A stretch of DNA of 64,000 nt from Flavobacteriales bacterium (GTDB lineage: Bacteria > Bacteroidota > Bacteroidia > Flavobacteriales_F > PHOS-HE28), in the NCBI GenBank assembly GCA_030584065.1, contig CP129489.1:3019497-3083496 (forward strand), in the 5' to 3' direction. This document shows positions 4,428 to 34,097 of this stretch, in pieces. Numbering within the stretch: the stretch's first letter is position 1; every line of letters starts with the position of its first letter. The position numbers and the translations under genes are program-made. The notes under the pieces were generated by a model. It had not been told where the DNA came from. It saw only the letters and a list, made by a program, of their open reading frames with translations, and ran no database searches.

Positions 4428-4669
4428 CCGGAGGCCTCTCTAGCGCCAAGACGCGGGTTGGGATGATTCCGCTGCTTGGGCCCAAGGCAACATGAATGTA
4501 TGGCGCACGGGGTCCCGCCAGATGAAAGCAAACGACAGCAAACGGCTGCAATCGCATACAAGCGGGGACTGGCCGAATCTGGGAGGGGGGCTGCGAAAAG
4601 GTTTGCACCGTCGGTCGGAATCAGCACCGGTCGGCGAAGCAGAAGTCAAACAATTAAAACCCCAATCCC

Positions 4670-5026
4670 ATGAACACGCTGAAGAACAAAGTCCACCTCG
4701 TCGGCAACCTCGGCTTCGACCCCGAAGTGCGCGAGATCGCGAAAGGGCGGAAAGTAGCCCGGCTCTCCGTGGCCACCCACGACAGCTACCGCAATGCCAG
4801 CGGTGAGCGGGTCACCGATACGCAGTGGCACACCGTGGTGGCCTGGGGCCAGACGGCGGAGATGGCGGAGCGCCTCCTTCGCAAAGGCTCGCCGGTGATG
4901 CTCGAGGGCCGATTGGTGCATCGCAGCTACGAGGCCAAGGACGGTACCAAGCGCTACATCACGGAGGTGGTGATGAGCAACTTCCAGCTTCTCCCGGGCA
5001 AGCGGGAGGAGGCAGCCGCAGCCTAA
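4670..5026 (+). CDS. ssb: Single-stranded DNA-binding protein, short form (copy 2)
   Basis: 118 residues, OB-fold SSB: LKNKVHLVGNLGFDPEVRE at the N-terminus, DTQWHTVVAWGQTAE in the core, LEGRLVHRSYEAKDGTKRY near the end. Like copy 1 at 978 it lacks the acidic C-terminal tip (ends KREEAAAA). Start at ATG 4670 matches family start. The 242 bp upstream contain no other gene I can support. A strong hairpin follows 17 bp after the stop. Confidence 0.93.
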   Translation: MNTLKNKVHLVGNLGFDPEVREIAKGRKVARLSVATHDSYRNASGERVTDTQWHTVVAWGQTAEMAERLLRKGSPVMLEGRLVHRSYEAKDGTKRYITEVVMSNFQLLPGKREEAAAA

Positions 5027-8625: not shown

Positions 8626-9363
<738 letters not shown>

Positions 9364-27140: not shown

Positions 27141-28652
27141 TCATGGCTGCACGATGAGCCGCTCAGCTGGTAGCAGGCGCTGGCCCTCTTGAAGCAGCTC
27201 AGCCATGTATGCGCCAGCAGGCAGTCGCCGCGTATCCACCAGCACTTGGCCGTGTGCTTGCCCGATGGCTTCGGTATGCACCACGCGGCCCAGGGCATCC
27301 AGCAGCACCAATTGCGCTTGGCCCTGCAGGGCGGGCAGCTCATAAGAGAAGACCACCCAGGCGTTGGCGGGGTTGGGCTTGATGCTAAGCCGCAGGGCAG
27401 GCTTGGCGCGCTCGGAATCCACCACCCCCAGCCCGATCTCCCCGCCATGCAACCGGGTTACCATGCGCTGTAAGGTATCGTTGGTGGTGCCATCGCTGTA
27501 GCCGTGGTAGGCGCCCCAGATGTAGTAATCGCCGGAGGGGGCGCGCGCAATGCCGTCGATGGACCCATAGCGCTGGATCATCTGGCCGAGCGGGTAGTCG
27601 TAGCTGCCGCAGCCGCCGCCTTGAAAATAGTATGGCACAACGTTCCCCAGCGTATCGAGCATGCAGATTCCGTTGTAGGGCTGGCCCTCCACTTCGGCGA
27701 AAAAGCCCGTGACGATGATTAAGCCGGACTCCAAGGGCAGGAGGTCCACAACACCAGCGTCCCAAAACGTGAAACCCTCACCCTTCACCATGTTGAGCCC
27801 ATTGTTGAAGGTCGGGTCCAAGCTGCCATCGGGCAGCACGCGGATCAGCTGGATCGTGTCCGTCTGATTCTCCAGGCGGAACATCCCGCCCAGGTAGGCC
27901 CGGCCATCGGGCAGGGTTTCCATAGCCCACACGTAGCCCCAGGGTATGGGCGCGTTGAAGCTGTTGTCCAAGCTGCCATCGGCATGCACGCGGATCACCT
28001 TGCTCACCGGCTGGCCTTCGTACATGGTGCCCCACTGATGCACCAGGAACTTCCCGCCCAGGCCCCCGGCCGTGCCCGCCAGGTACTCCTTGATCCCGAA
28101 CACCGCCCCGTTGCCCGTGCGGTGCGTGCGCGTGGTGTCCAAGCGGCCATTGTTGAAGAACCAGACCAGGTTGTACCCGCCTTGGTAGCCGAGGTGCGGA
28201 GCATTAATGGTGTGGTAGCCGCCCAGCAGCACCCGGCCATCGGGGTACACATGGTAGTCGCCACCCTGGGCCGAATTGAAGTAGGGGTCGAAGTTCATGT
28301 GCTGGAAGGACGGGTCGATTTGCCCGTTGGGAAGCAACCGGCGCACCGTCTGGCTGCCCGCCACATAGTAGCGGTCCTGCCACCGGGTGAGCTTTGATCC
28401 ACCTTCGGAATATGGGAACGACTGGTCGTTTTGCCCATTTGCTGATACCCGCGCGAGGTAGCGTGGGTTGGTTTCGCCAGGAAACTCCATTCTACCGGAC
28501 AACAACATTTGCCCATTCGCCAAGAACGCGATGGAGTTGACGTTTCGAGCGGGAAGGTCCATCCTGAACTGCGTGTCAACGCTCAATGGAACCTGAGCGC
28601 CGCTGCTTGAGGCCGCACTTAGTGCGGCTGCAAGCATGATGTTGCGCCTCAT
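27141..28652 (-). CDS. T9SS delta-60-repeat surface protein (paralog A)
   Basis: 503 residues. Signal peptide (MRRNIMLAAALSAASSSGAQ) then repeats of the delta-60 type, e.g. VIRVHADGSLDNSFN and LIRVLPDGSLDPTFN, each with LPDGRAYLGG-like strands, which probably form a propeller. A T9SS domain closes the protein (LRLSIKPNPANAWVVF, LPAGAYMAEL). It is the third gene of a tightly coupled operon; its start overlaps the stop of paralog B by 4 bp. The middle region (about 130-270) and the stretch before the T9SS domain are nearly identical to paralog B, while residues ~290-360 differ. Confidence 0.88.
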   Translation of the reverse strand: MRRNIMLAAALSAASSSGAQVPLSVDTQFRMDLPARNVNSIAFLANGQMLLSGRMEFPGETNPRYLARVSANGQNDQSFPYSEGGSKLTRWQDRYYVAGSQTVRRLLPNGQIDPSFQHMNFDPYFNSAQGGDYHVYPDGRVLLGGYHTINAPHLGYQGGYNLVWFFNNGRLDTTRTHRTGNGAVFGIKEYLAGTAGGLGGKFLVHQWGTMYEGQPVSKVIRVHADGSLDNSFNAPIPWGYVWAMETLPDGRAYLGGMFRLENQTDTIQLIRVLPDGSLDPTFNNGLNMVKGEGFTFWDAGVVDLLPLESGLIIVTGFFAEVEGQPYNGICMLDTLGNVVPYYFQGGGCGSYDYPLGQMIQRYGSIDGIARAPSGDYYIWGAYHGYSDGTTNDTLQRMVTRLHGGEIGLGVVDSERAKPALRLSIKPNPANAWVVFSYELPALQGQAQLVLLDALGRVVHTEAIGQAHGQVLVDTRRLPAGAYMAELLQEGQRLLPAERLIVQP

Positions 28653-30160
28653 GGTTGCACGATGAGCCGTTCAGCAGGCAGCAGGCGGCTTGCTCCCTGC
28701 ACCACTTCCACCGTGTATGCGCCGGCTGGCAGCCCACGCGTATCCATGAGCACTTGGCCATTGCCGCGACCGAGGGAGGCACGCCACGCCTCGCGCCCCA
28801 TCACGTCCCGGACAATCAGCTGCGCTTCCCCGCTCAAGTCGGGCAACTCGCAGGTGAAGACAACCCAAGCATTGGCGGGGTTCGGCTTGATGCCTAGCCG
28901 CAGGGCAGGCTTGGCGCGCTCGGCATCCACCACCCCCAACCCGATCTCCCCGCCGTGCAACCGGGTCACCATGCGCTGCAGCGTATCGTTGGTGGTGCCA
29001 TCGCTGTAGCCGTGGTAGGCGCCCCAGATGTAGTAATCGCCGCTGGGCGCGCGGGTGATGCCCGAGAGTGCGCCATAGGTGACCGTTTGCATGCCCATCT
29101 GATAGTCGTAGTTGCCGCACATGGCGCCATCGGCATAGAAGGGAACCACTTGCCCGGTGGTATCGATGATGCAAAGACCACCGCGCGCGTAGCCTTCGAC
29201 GGTGTTGAAGTCGCCAGCTAGCGCGAGAAGACCGGAGCCCAGCTCACAGACGTCTATCACGCTCGGATGGGTTGCCAAGTGCGCCGTGTCAATTTCAAAA
29301 GCTAGCCAGTTGTTGAACGAGGGGTCCAGGCTTCCATCCGGCAGCAGCCGCACCAACTGGACCCTATCGGTGCCATTCTCCAGATGGTACTCGCCCGCGA
29401 TATACGCCCGCCCATCGGGCAGGGGCAGCATGTCGTAGATGTAGCCCCACGGTATCGGCGCATTGAAGCTGTTGTCCAGGCTGCCATCGGCGTGCACCCG
29501 GATCACCTTGCTCACCGGCTGCCCTTCGTACTGCGTGCCCCATTGGTGCACCAGGAACTTGCCGCCCAGGCCTCCGGCCGTGCCCGCCGGGTACTCCTTG
29601 ATCCGCCAAACCACGCCGTTGCCCGTGCGGTGCGTGCGCGTGGTGTCCAAGCGGCCATTGTTGTAGAACCAAATCAGGTTGTACGCGCCTTGGTAGCCAA
29701 GATGCGGGGCATTGATGGTGTGATAGCCGCCCAACAGCACCCGCCCATCGGGGTAAACATGGTAGTCGCCGCCTTGAAGAGAACTGAAGTAGGGGTCGAA
29801 GTTCATGTGCTGGAAGCTGTTGTCCAGCGTTCCGTTCGGCAGCAGGCGCCTTACGGTCTGGCTGCCGGCCACATAGTAGCGATCCTGCCATGGGGTGAGC
29901 TTGGCGCCTCCGTAGGTGAATGGGAAGCTCAAATCTCGGCTGCCGTCCGGATTGATGCGGGCAAGAGGCCACACATTGGCCTCGCCGGGAAACCGCATAT
30001 TGCCGGAGAGCAGCAATTGCCCATTCGGCATCGTGACCAAGGAATAGACATTCTGGGCGGGCAGGTCCATTCTGAAGCCAACATCGATGCTCAGCGGCGC
30101 TTGCGCCACCGTGCTGCTGGCAGCGCTGAGCGCCGCCAGCAGCATCAAATGGCTCTTCAT
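28649..30160 (-). CDS. T9SS delta-60-repeat surface protein (paralog B)
   Basis: 503 residues, same length and design as paralog A: signal peptide MKSHLMLLAALSAASSTVAQ, delta-60 repeats (VRLLPDGSLDPSFN), T9SS domain ending ERLIVQP. Its T9SS domain is closer to that of the 1280-residue protease upstream than to paralog A (CELPDLSGEAQLIVRDVMG versus CELPELTGDAQLIVRDMMG), pointing to gene conversion or recent domain copying. Starts overlap by 4 bp on both sides (ATGA), so translation is coupled across the operon. Confidence 0.88.
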   Translation of the reverse strand: MKSHLMLLAALSAASSTVAQAPLSIDVGFRMDLPAQNVYSLVTMPNGQLLLSGNMRFPGEANVWPLARINPDGSRDLSFPFTYGGAKLTPWQDRYYVAGSQTVRRLLPNGTLDNSFQHMNFDPYFSSLQGGDYHVYPDGRVLLGGYHTINAPHLGYQGAYNLIWFYNNGRLDTTRTHRTGNGVVWRIKEYPAGTAGGLGGKFLVHQWGTQYEGQPVSKVIRVHADGSLDNSFNAPIPWGYIYDMLPLPDGRAYIAGEYHLENGTDRVQLVRLLPDGSLDPSFNNWLAFEIDTAHLATHPSVIDVCELGSGLLALAGDFNTVEGYARGGLCIIDTTGQVVPFYADGAMCGNYDYQMGMQTVTYGALSGITRAPSGDYYIWGAYHGYSDGTTNDTLQRMVTRLHGGEIGLGVVDAERAKPALRLGIKPNPANAWVVFTCELPDLSGEAQLIVRDVMGREAWRASLGRGNGQVLMDTRGLPAGAYTVEVVQGASRLLPAERLIVQP

Positions 30161-33100
30161 GGCTGTACAATCAGCCGCTCGGCCGGCAGAAGTCGGCTAG
30201 TGCCCTGCACCACCTCTGCGGAATAAGTACCGGCAGGCAGCCCGCGCGTATCCATAAGCACTTGGCCATTGCCACGGCCTATGGCACCGCGCCAAGCCTC
30301 GCGCCCCATCATGTCACGCACGATCAGTTGCGCGTCGCCTGTAAGCTCAGGCAACTCACAGGTGAAGACCACCCAGGCGTTGGCCGGGTTGGGCTTGATG
30401 CCTAAACGCGGCTGCTCCTTGTTGGCAACCACCGGACGGCGTACACGCGCTTTCGGCTCCGCTCCCGCATCGCCGGTGTAGGGGCTGCGGCAGTTGCCAT
30501 AGTTGTAGCAGAGCAGATGGCTGGCCCATTGCGTGGGGCGGTCGTGCTCCACATCAATGAACAACTGCAATTGCGCCACCTCTGCGCCAGTGAGCTGCGC
30601 CGTGCTGCGGCCATCGGCATGCACCGCTTCCAGGAAGTCGATGTAGGTCAGCATGCGCGCGCGCTCATCCACCTGCTTGCCTTTGAGCTCGTGCTCGCCG
30701 GGCAGGGCGGTGATCAGGTCGCGGGCCTGGGCGTACTGGTTGCGGCCCACCAGCAGCAGGGCCTCATCGTAGCGCGCCTCCGCCGTGCGCAGCAATTGCA
30801 GCGCGGCCAGCTCTTCGGCCTGATCGGTGCCGTTCTCCTCATCGTCGGCGGCCAGCAGTTCGGCCAGCGCGTAGGCGGCCTCGCTCATGCGCAAGTGCTC
30901 CTGCCCCATCTGCATCTCCAGGGTAGCGCGGTAGGTCTTCACGGTCCAACTGGCCTCGACGGCCTCCAACAGCGACTCAGGCAGGGGCTGGGTGCATTCG
31001 GTCTCGAGCCATTTCAGGAAGCCCTCCTTCTGGGTGGCTTCGGGATTCGCGATACAGATCTCAGCGCGCATGGCATCGGGGAAGCCCTCCTTCTCCATGG
31101 CTTCCTTCAGCACGTCAACGCTCAGGTAGGGGCTCTTGCTCAGCAGGTAGGCGCGCAGGTCCCAGTAGTCCTGCGGCCAGGCTGCCGCGATCTCATCCAG
31201 CACCACATCGGTGCTGCCGCCATCGATCAGGTTGGCGTAGAGGAAGCGCAGCCCGGCGTAGGCCTGCCGCGCCTGCTCCACTTCGCCTTGCAGGGCCAGT
31301 TGGTCGCTGGCCCAGCTGACGAGGATGGGGCAGCCGTAGAGCACCTGCGGACCGCTGAGCGTGGGCGCCACGAGGCCCTGCACCGTGGTGGGTGCGTAAT
31401 GGGGCGCGCTCACATGCCAATAGGTGATCAGGCTCTGGGTGCTCACACGGATGTCCAACGCGCTGTTGGTGCCATTGTCCAGGTAGTTCAGCGCGGGCAC
31501 GTTCTGCCAGCCTTGGTTCAGGCGGATGGTGTGGTTCTGCAACTCGTTTGCTTGCGCCCCTTGCGCCTGCCTGCTCCAGATGTTCCACCCGTTGGCGTTG
31601 TTGGTGTTGCAAAGGAATTGCAGCCCAATGGCGGCGGGGTTGCCGGTGTTGGCGCTCACGCCTTCGCCCACGTAGCCGCGGTCCATGCCGCTCACGGTAT
31701 TGCTGCGGATGCTCTCGCTGGCGGTATTGGTGTAGCCGATCACGATGCCCTCAGTATCAGCGAACGGCTCGCTGGCCTCAGTGAGCGCATTGTCCATAAC
31801 ACGCAAGCCGTTGCAATGCGTGAAGAAGATGCCGCGGTGGAACTGCTCCCAAAAGACTTCATCCGGGGCATCCAGCGTCACCGCCCGCTCGCCCACGTTG
31901 AAGGTGCAATGGCGCACCATCGGGTTCCGCAGGCCCTCGCCATACACGCCGCACACGTTGCTGGCGAACTGGGCGCGGTGCACGCTGAGGCGCGGTAGCC
32001 CCACGCTGGCCGTGGCATGCACGCCGTGGTCGAGGCCGGTGAAGGTGCAGGGCATCTGGGTGGCCACCGGGCAATTGTAGCCGCCATTGGGGCAAGCCGC
32101 CTGTACCCACACCGTGCTGTTGTGCGCCTTGATGCCATAGCCCAGTTGGCTGCTGTATTCTGGGTATTGGCCGCTGTGCTCAAAAGCGCAGGCGCGGAAG
32201 CTCACGCGCACGCCGTTGAGGTCGGCCAAGGCGATGGGGTTGTTGTTGCCGTGGATGTTGTCGAAGTCCTCGGTCCACTCGAAACGGGCGTGGGCGAAGG
32301 TGCTGCGGTTGTTGAGGGCCACCAGGCCATTGCTGGAAAGGCTGGTGTAGGGATCGAACTTCACACCTGTGCGGCAGTTGCGGATAACGCAGGGCGGGTT
32401 GCTCGCCGTGCCCTCGAAGCGGATCACGCCGCCGGCCTTTGTGGGGTCGCCGGGCTTGCCGAGGTAAACGCCGGTCTCGGCGTTCTCGATGATGCCGCCG
32501 TTCTTGATGACGACGAGGCCTTGGTGGGCGAGGTTGGTGACCCCGGGCCACCACCATGATTGCAGTCCATCCTGTTGACCCTGATTCGCGTTGCCCCATA
32601 CCTCGATGCCCCGGAATGGCGCATTGAAGTAGCCCGCCTCCGCATTGTAACTGGCGTTGGTGATGGTGCCGCCATCGATTAGCAAGACGCCACCGGGCTC
32701 CACCACGATCTTGGCCTCGCCGACAAGCTCGGTGCGGCAGGTGATCTTCAGCATCTGCTTGTTCCGCACGTGGACGTTCTGATAGAGCTTCAACGGAAAG
32801 TCCCAGGCCCAAACAGCGCCGTCGTTGAATTGGGTTGGCCAGCTGAGAATGGCGTCGGCGTTGTAGCCTTCTGCGGCTTTGCTCACTTGAGTGACCGATA
32901 GCGTGCGGTGCATCCGGCCCATCTGCAGGTTGCTCGAATGAAAGCCGACGCTCGGCGCCATGACATTGTTGGTACAGATATCGAATTCGTTTGCGGTTGC
33001 ATCGCAACCATTGAAGCCGCCCATGGGACAATAGTTGATGAAGGGAAGCCCCGAAGCGCATTGCGACGCAACATTCTGAACGGTGCACCACGGTGCTTGC

Positions 33101-34030
33101 TGGTAACAGGAGAACACGTCTGGCATGAAATCGAACTGTCCACTATTGAGCGGCGCGGACCAGTCATACACGTGCGTAAGATCCATGGCATGCATGAATT
33201 CATGCGCCCATTGCTGGGCGACAGCACCCCATTGCCAATCCGTAGGTCCCCAGAAATTCGGGTTCTCTGAGCCATGCACCACAACCCAGGCGGGATTGTC
33301 CCAAAAGAAACTACCTGGTGTCGGATTGCAAGCAGTGCCCGAACTCGAGCCGCAGGACCAGGGGCCCACAACGTGCCAGAGCACGGTGTTCTTCAGGTCG
33401 GGTCGATCGGCCAGTGCAGCATTGGAGCACGCCTCCATGACTTGCGAGTCAGTGCATCCAATATTGTTAGCGCTCCACCACCATGTGCTGTTCCGGAACA
33501 CAATATCAGCGAGCTTCAATTGAATGCGGGTGTCCTGCAGGTAATAATCCAGGTCGGGTATGCCGGGATCAGACGGTGGGGCTACGGACTCGAAGTAATT
33601 CTCAGAGATGTAGTCGATCATCATGGCCATCCGTTGACGATTCAGCGGTGTGTCCAACCAATTGTAGTCCCCTTCATCGCGCAACCATATGTGCAGGCTG
33701 ATAGATATCTGCTTGGTCGCGGTTGGTCGATGGTGATACCCTGCTACATCGTTTGACCCGTAGCCAGCTCCGGAGTATCCTGGAGGAAATGGTACATGCC
33801 AGACTTGTGTGCTCCATCCTGGGTTTCCACCGTTATTGTAGAACTCGGTGCTCGATTGATTACATCCCGCCCCCCCTCCTCCGCGTTGGTAGAATGGGAC
33901 TTCTGAACCTGAATATCCGCAGCCCTCTACCTGCGCATATGCACTAGTGATCAGCAATAGCCCCGTTGGGGGGGGGGGAGGCAATAAACGCCGCCGCAAG
34001 CGCGGCTAGCCAGAGCCTTCTCGTTCTCAT
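30157..34030 (-). CDS. Secreted metzincin-like protease with beta-helix and T9SS domain; frameshift in C11 tract
   Basis: The body is a 1280-residue frame open from 33999. Its zinc motif HEFMHAMDLTH (His266, Glu267, His270, His276 in that frame) fits HExxHxxGxxH but with Asp at the usual Gly; a Met-turn follows (NNVMAPS, then QMGRMHRTLS), as in pappalysin-like metzincins. About 430-880 reads as a parallel beta-helix (FRGIEVWGNA, GVKFDPYTSL, FRACAFEHSG), then a helical region with AYALAELLAADDEE, then a T9SS domain. The apparent TTG start lacks a signal peptide; ATG 34030 in another frame gives MRTRRLWLAALAAAFIA, and removing one C from the 11-C tract (33968-33978) joins it to LLLITSAYAQ. A promoter lies 37 nt upstream of that ATG. 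Confidence 0.8.
33968..33978 (-). repeat. C11 homopolymer tract inside the protease start region
   Basis: Eleven consecutive G on the plus strand (C on the coding strand), 17 codons after ATG 34030. With 11 C the signal-peptide frame stops 12 codons after the first Ser of the tract; with 10 C (or 13) it continues into the protease. This is the arrangement of a slipped-strand contingency tract; a homopolymer sequencing error would look the same. Confidence 0.85.
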
Positions 34031-34066
34031 GGTGGAGGGTTTGGATGGTGGTTCTGAAGGGTATGC

Positions 34067-34097
34067 CGAAGGTAGCAGCACGGTTGAGGTGTGCAAC
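34067..34097 (-). promoter_or_regulatory. Promoter of the T9SS operon
   Basis: On the minus strand: GTTG at 34097-34094 (-33), 19-bp spacer, TACCTTCG at 34074-34067 (-7). It ends 36 nt upstream of ATG 34030, which supports that ATG as the true start. A 7-bp hairpin (34114-34129, CCCGGGT arms) lies further upstream. Confidence 0.6.

Follow-up and report, generated by a model that had tools for sequence, protein, structure and literature searches.

A poly-C tract that splits a signal peptide suggests slipped-strand phase variation of a secreted, probably type IX, protein in an uncultured genus of Flavobacteriales

The window, by which we mean the whole 64,000-nt stretch of DNA analyzed here (contig CP129489.1, positions 3,019,497 to 3,083,496), belongs to a Flavobacteriales genome assembled as a single contig of 3.92 Mb and 99.97% complete. 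On its minus strand, three overlapping ORFs follow a promoter-like sequence, and a run of 11 cytosines is found at the 5' end of the first of them (Table 1). The run begins 52 nt downstream of the first base of ATG 34030. Reading from this ATG yields MRTRRLWLAALAAAFIASPPPNGAIADH and then a stop. The charged and hydrophobic parts of a signal peptide, MRTRRLWLAALAAAFIA, precede the tract, which is placed inside the signal-peptide coding sequence, between the hydrophobic part and the cleavage region. The gene-body frame, ending at the stop 30157, is joined to ATG 34030 only if the tract has one C fewer or two more, that is, 10 or 13 Cs. A first-pass annotation of the window had described a C11 tract separating the signal-peptide frame from a protease frame, and its position and frames agree exactly with ours; its statement of which base changes would join the frames is confirmed by the translations. 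It had also claimed that the downstream ORF has no signal peptide of its own. This is true of the N-terminal parts, which are upstream of the tract, but a cleavage region of the SAYA/QVEG type lies downstream of it. The signal peptide is split by the tract rather than missing from the downstream ORF.

Table 1. Features of the locus, in window coordinates
Feature	Coordinates	Strand	Description
C11 tract (G11 on the plus strand)	33968..33978	-	proposed slipped-strand switch
Signal-peptide start frame from ATG 34030	33944..34030	-	28-residue peptide, TAG just past the tract in this allele
TTG opening the gene frame upstream of the tract	33997..33999	-	may serve as a weak alternative start here
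Gene body, about 1,270 codons	30157..33967	-	out of frame with ATG 34030 in this genome
Zinc-binding motif HEFMHAMDLTH	33172..33204	-	metzincin-like HExxHxxGxxH, D for G
Promoter-like GTTG-N19-TACCTTCG	34067..34097	-	36 nt between the TACCTTCG box and ATG 34030
Second ORF	28649..30160	-	ATGA overlap with the stop of the first ORF, own signal peptide, delta-60/DUF5122 repeats, similar C-terminus
Third ORF	27141..28652	-	ATGA overlap with the second ORF, architecture as in the second ORF

The gene body encodes the cleavage region TGLLLITSAYA/QVEG, a zinc-protease-like domain, a beta-helix-like part, and a C-terminus common to it and the next two ORFs. The product had been called a metzincin, and a metzincin-like motif with D for G is present, its counterparts in homologs being canonical (HEYGHALGLHH, HELMHAFGLSH, HELGHSLGFAH); however, the window protein has no match in Pfam or NCBIfam, and the name describes the motif only. 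In a search for a Met-turn, NVM was found later in the protein than the zinc-binding motif. The AlphaFold model of the N-terminal domain has a pLDDT of 35 and was set aside. The C-terminus is 84% identical to that of the second ORF, whose Por_Secre_tail score is below the cut-off, and the sorting-domain match of the third ORF (E 0.001) is likewise below it. The C-terminus common to these two weakly scoring, below-cut-off ORFs suggests that the window protein may be a type IX substrate.

The promoter-like pair with a GTTG box that had been noted upstream of ATG 34030 is present, with the spacing given in Table 1, and three homologous loci carry TTTG-N19-TAAGTTCG about as far from their own tracts. 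Both downstream ORFs encode their own signal peptides. It is plausible that their translation, if coupled to that of the first ORF, would be lost in the off state.

Long G/C runs are rare in this genome: 21 are of at least 9 nt, 7 of at least 10 nt, and 3 of at least 11 nt. Three of the seven runs of at least 10 nt, namely the window tract and those at C1:2658808 and C1:3598865, start 43-52 nt past the ATG of a signal-peptide ORF, and all three are out of frame. Long ORFs that contain C9 runs stay open. Like the repeats of contingency loci, the window tract is pure, lies near the 5' end of an ORF, and is, with its 11 Cs, long for the genome.

The longest G/C run of the genome, a G17 at C1:1556045-1556061 (L014, L038), is found at the extreme 3' end of a ~200-codon ORF that by eye looks like a helix-turn-helix protein. 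Upstream of the gene at C1:3598865 (L037) there is a ~190-bp stretch (~4599-4789) with a 90% identical copy about 4.4 kb downstream (~9047-9237). By eye, this stretch is possibly the end of alaS, and the gene looks as if it had been inserted with a duplication.

A genus search yielded a genome of the same species, G058, a fragmented assembly that is 83% complete and whose contig ends about 100 bp past the window tract. The flanks of the tract are 99.5% identical in the two genomes over 1,137 bp, while the tract region is ATTGCCT-C11-AACG in this genome and ATTG-C10-AACG in the other. In G058, the signal peptide and the gene share one frame, MRTRRLWLAALAAAFIAPPPTGLLLITSAYAQVEG, and the signal peptide is complete. 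A point against phase variation by slippage is that more than one simple step separates the alleles, as they are 4 nt apart and one of the four is a T. At the sister locus C1:2658808 (L036; L295 in G058), the tract is C11 here and C9 in G058, the latter being in frame at the tract. A second, non-repeat frameshift further downstream is common to both genomes, and therefore this gene is probably decaying. The third tract locus, C1:3598865, was not found in the 83% complete G058. All 10 orthologous C9 runs outside signal peptides are equal in length in the two genomes. The length thus differs at two of two signal-peptide tracts and at none of the 10 other runs (Fisher p 0.015), although the control runs are all C9, shorter than the varying tracts, so that length is confounded with position. 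At the window locus, then, the repeat length differs between close strains, and the change toggles the frame, in in G058 and out here, in a gene that is otherwise intact, both as expected for a contingency locus. The comparison with close genomes proposed by the first-pass annotation has accordingly placed an in-frame tract length between near-identical flanks in the same species.

Two other runs in G058 are found a few bases before an ATG each, a C10 (L311, ~1499) and a C9 (L324, ~34). If these runs changed in length, the effect could be on translation initiation and not on frame.

Purifying selection acts on the gene body. In comparison with its counterpart in G058 (L297), dN/dS is 0.19 over 1,155 codons, and there is a single open frame in both genomes, with indels that are compensated or 18 nt long, no stop, and no net frame-breaking indel. 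A decaying pseudogene would not be expected to look like this. Over about 1.3 kb directly after the tract the two genomes are near-identical. The middle and C-terminal part (window 30370-32470 vs L297) shows patchy divergence, roughly 4-25% per 150 bp, with a sharp onset, which suggests that these parts of the gene have recombined.

Homologs of the window protein are present in many genomes of the genus. Of about 35 homologs that include the gene start, 14 have a repeat within the signal peptide or immediately upstream of it. These repeats are C runs of 8-15, some with one other base interrupting, a perfect (CCTT)12.75 array inside the signal peptide (L205, 3503-3553), and a perfect (AC)16.5 array just before it (L179, 3452-3484). 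Loci with near-identical flanks (CTTCTGAAACCCTTGCTGGTAGCGGC..., then GCTGAACCCCTTGG...) have tracts of C8, 9, 9, 9, 11, 12, and 12, plus one interrupted run. Three homologs that have the metzincin-like N-terminal region in common carry C12 (L175), the AC array (L179), and C13 (L190). It had been reasoned that a conserved, non-repetitive sequence at this site in homologs would speak against a switch; what occupies it are varying repeats. Where the genomes of the relatives have named records, these are MAGs labeled Flavobacteriales or Bacteroidetes, at least one of them with an activated-sludge-type name (Gw_SlAct_bin_418). The phage collection gave no match.

We counted frames at 22 repeat-bearing loci, comprising homologs and secreted-protein genes found by pattern (L036, L037, L215-L220, L298), with G058 excluded. 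As assembled, 21 of these are out of frame, more than the two thirds expected by chance (binomial P about 0.002); for L199, an ambiguous case, the closest ATG was used, and two of the loci, L036 and L216, appear to be decayed. This excess counts against phase variation, which needs a mostly-off repertoire or another reason to accommodate it. We infer that a mostly-off repertoire may account for the excess.

Taken together, these data make translational phase variation by slipped-strand mispairing the best and a highly probable reading of the locus. The proteins concerned would be secreted, probably by the type IX route, and the mechanism would resemble that of neisserial opa. The tract would be a hypermutable contingency site, at which DNA polymerase slippage would alter how many Cs there are. 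A tract of 10 Cs, or of 10 plus or minus a multiple of three, would join the ATG start of the signal peptide to the gene body, and the protein would be made and exported; at other lengths translation would end after about 25-30 codons. This genome would carry the out-of-frame allele and G058 the in-frame one, and the locus would belong to a genus-wide set of secreted proteins with repeats at their 5' ends. The sequences show that the alleles differ at the tract, that this changes the frame, that the gene body is conserved and that repeats recur; we infer that slippage is the cause of the length changes, that these are reversible, and that the protein is lost out of frame. Expression of the two overlapping downstream genes would presumably be lowered as well, and the benefit might be, for instance, varied exposure to phages, predators or substrates. 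A candidate phase-variable switch had already been proposed from the window; it is now supported by the in-frame tract in the same species and by the repeats at this place throughout the genus.

Other explanations are weaker, and we rank all of them below phase variation. If the tract length were a homopolymer sequencing or assembly error, this genome too would in truth have the gene in frame. The lengths of C runs are often wrong in long-read consensus, a one-contig genome is probably a long-read one, and the allele of G058 is in frame, all of which favors an error. Still, what separates the two alleles is not a single C but 4 nt, one of them a T, the 10 other C9 runs agree exactly between the assemblies, and the C9 runs in long ORFs of this genome leave these ORFs open. 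Moreover, other species have repeats with different unit sizes at this site, and out-of-frame tracts are also found repeatedly in assemblies that seem, from their contig names, to come from short-read assemblers. The first-pass annotation had taken an error to be the main alternative; given the 4-nt allele difference and the equal C9 controls, we now consider it unlikely.

Under programmed recoding, RNA polymerase would slip, or ribosomes would shift frame, on the C run; the frame would be restored in some of the products, and expression would be steady and low at any tract length. Recoding would agree with nearly all homologs being out of frame, as if the frame at the DNA level were immaterial, and with purifying selection on the gene body despite its out-of-frame state here. 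However, the homologs need shifts of both +1 and -1 and lack the constant offset of a programmed frameshift gene, and the (CCTT)n and (AC)n arrays found in this position would be unusual slippery sites. Indifference to frame also predicts one third of the loci in frame, while fewer are observed. Known transcriptional slippage occurs mostly on A or T runs (PMC3711429). We regard recoding as improbable.

The gene could also be an ordinary pseudogene, inactivated by an indel in this strain and now decaying, as might be thought from its being out of frame and from the second frameshift of the sister locus L036. The selection and indel pattern of the gene body stands against this, as do the repeats that recur at the corresponding site in other species, and we give it very little credence. 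Finally, it is most improbable that the true start is TTG 33999, the gene being on in this allele and the tract merely encoding a proline stretch: with C11 the TTG frame does stay open and encodes MRRRLLPPPPPTGLLLITSAYA/QVEG, but five prolines interrupt its short hydrophobic part, the promoter-proximal ATG frame gives a much better signal peptide, and the homologous tracts have no such start in the gene frame.

Beyond the single locus, phase variation may extend to the whole genus, and we lean slightly towards the view that this uncultured, free-living lineage has a slippage-based phasome, in which large secreted, probably type IX, proteins are each gated by their own poly-C, CCTT or AC repeat and are mostly off. 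Most work on slippage-driven phase variation concerns pathogens with small genomes, and what Bacteroidota are known for is DNA inversion. The principle is an established one; the lineage and the cargo look new within the literature searched. In this search, with most subscription journals outside its scope, nothing turned up on type IX cargo that varies in phase by slippage, nor on slippage repeats of the kind seen here in Bacteroidota. If true, repeat-gated secreted proteins throughout the genus would widen the known range of the strategy to include type IX-type cargo and free-living, seemingly wastewater bacteria. Repeat gating would also explain why such genes look broken in assemblies, where they are likely misannotated as pseudogenes.

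Among known systems, the closest is that of the Neisseria opa genes, with CTCTT repeats in the signal-peptide coding sequence (PMC4534519). In both cases the repeat lies within the part of the gene that encodes the signal peptide, the frame depends on copy number (at the window locus, as proposed), several loci are present per genome, and the products are surface or secreted proteins (PMC4534519). Unlike opa, the window locus has poly-C in place of the CTCTT pentamer, comes from Flavobacteriales, and encodes a large secreted protein unrelated to the Opa barrels, and its switching is proposed from sequence. With neither the pentamer nor a barrel protein, the window locus is best read as probably working like opa and not as a member of the opa family. 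In pilC, the homopolymer is a poly-G in the signal peptide, and the window locus resembles it in that a secreted-protein gene has a homopolymeric G/C run close to its 5' end, although the protein, the phylum, and the secretion route are different. Neisseria pilC varies by slipped-strand mispairing (PMC4534519). In Haemophilus influenzae (PMC2651432), there are loci with tetranucleotide arrays at gene starts, as in the homolog L205 with (CCTT)12.75; their products are mostly LPS-related, however, and the window locus uses poly-C. Bacteroides, named for inversion systems in a review (PMC11868660), shares with the window locus the phylum and, as we propose, the random switching of surface functions, in its case by invertible promoters. 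There, DNA inversion by recombinases alters transcription (PMC11868660), whereas at the window locus repeat length would alter the reading frame.
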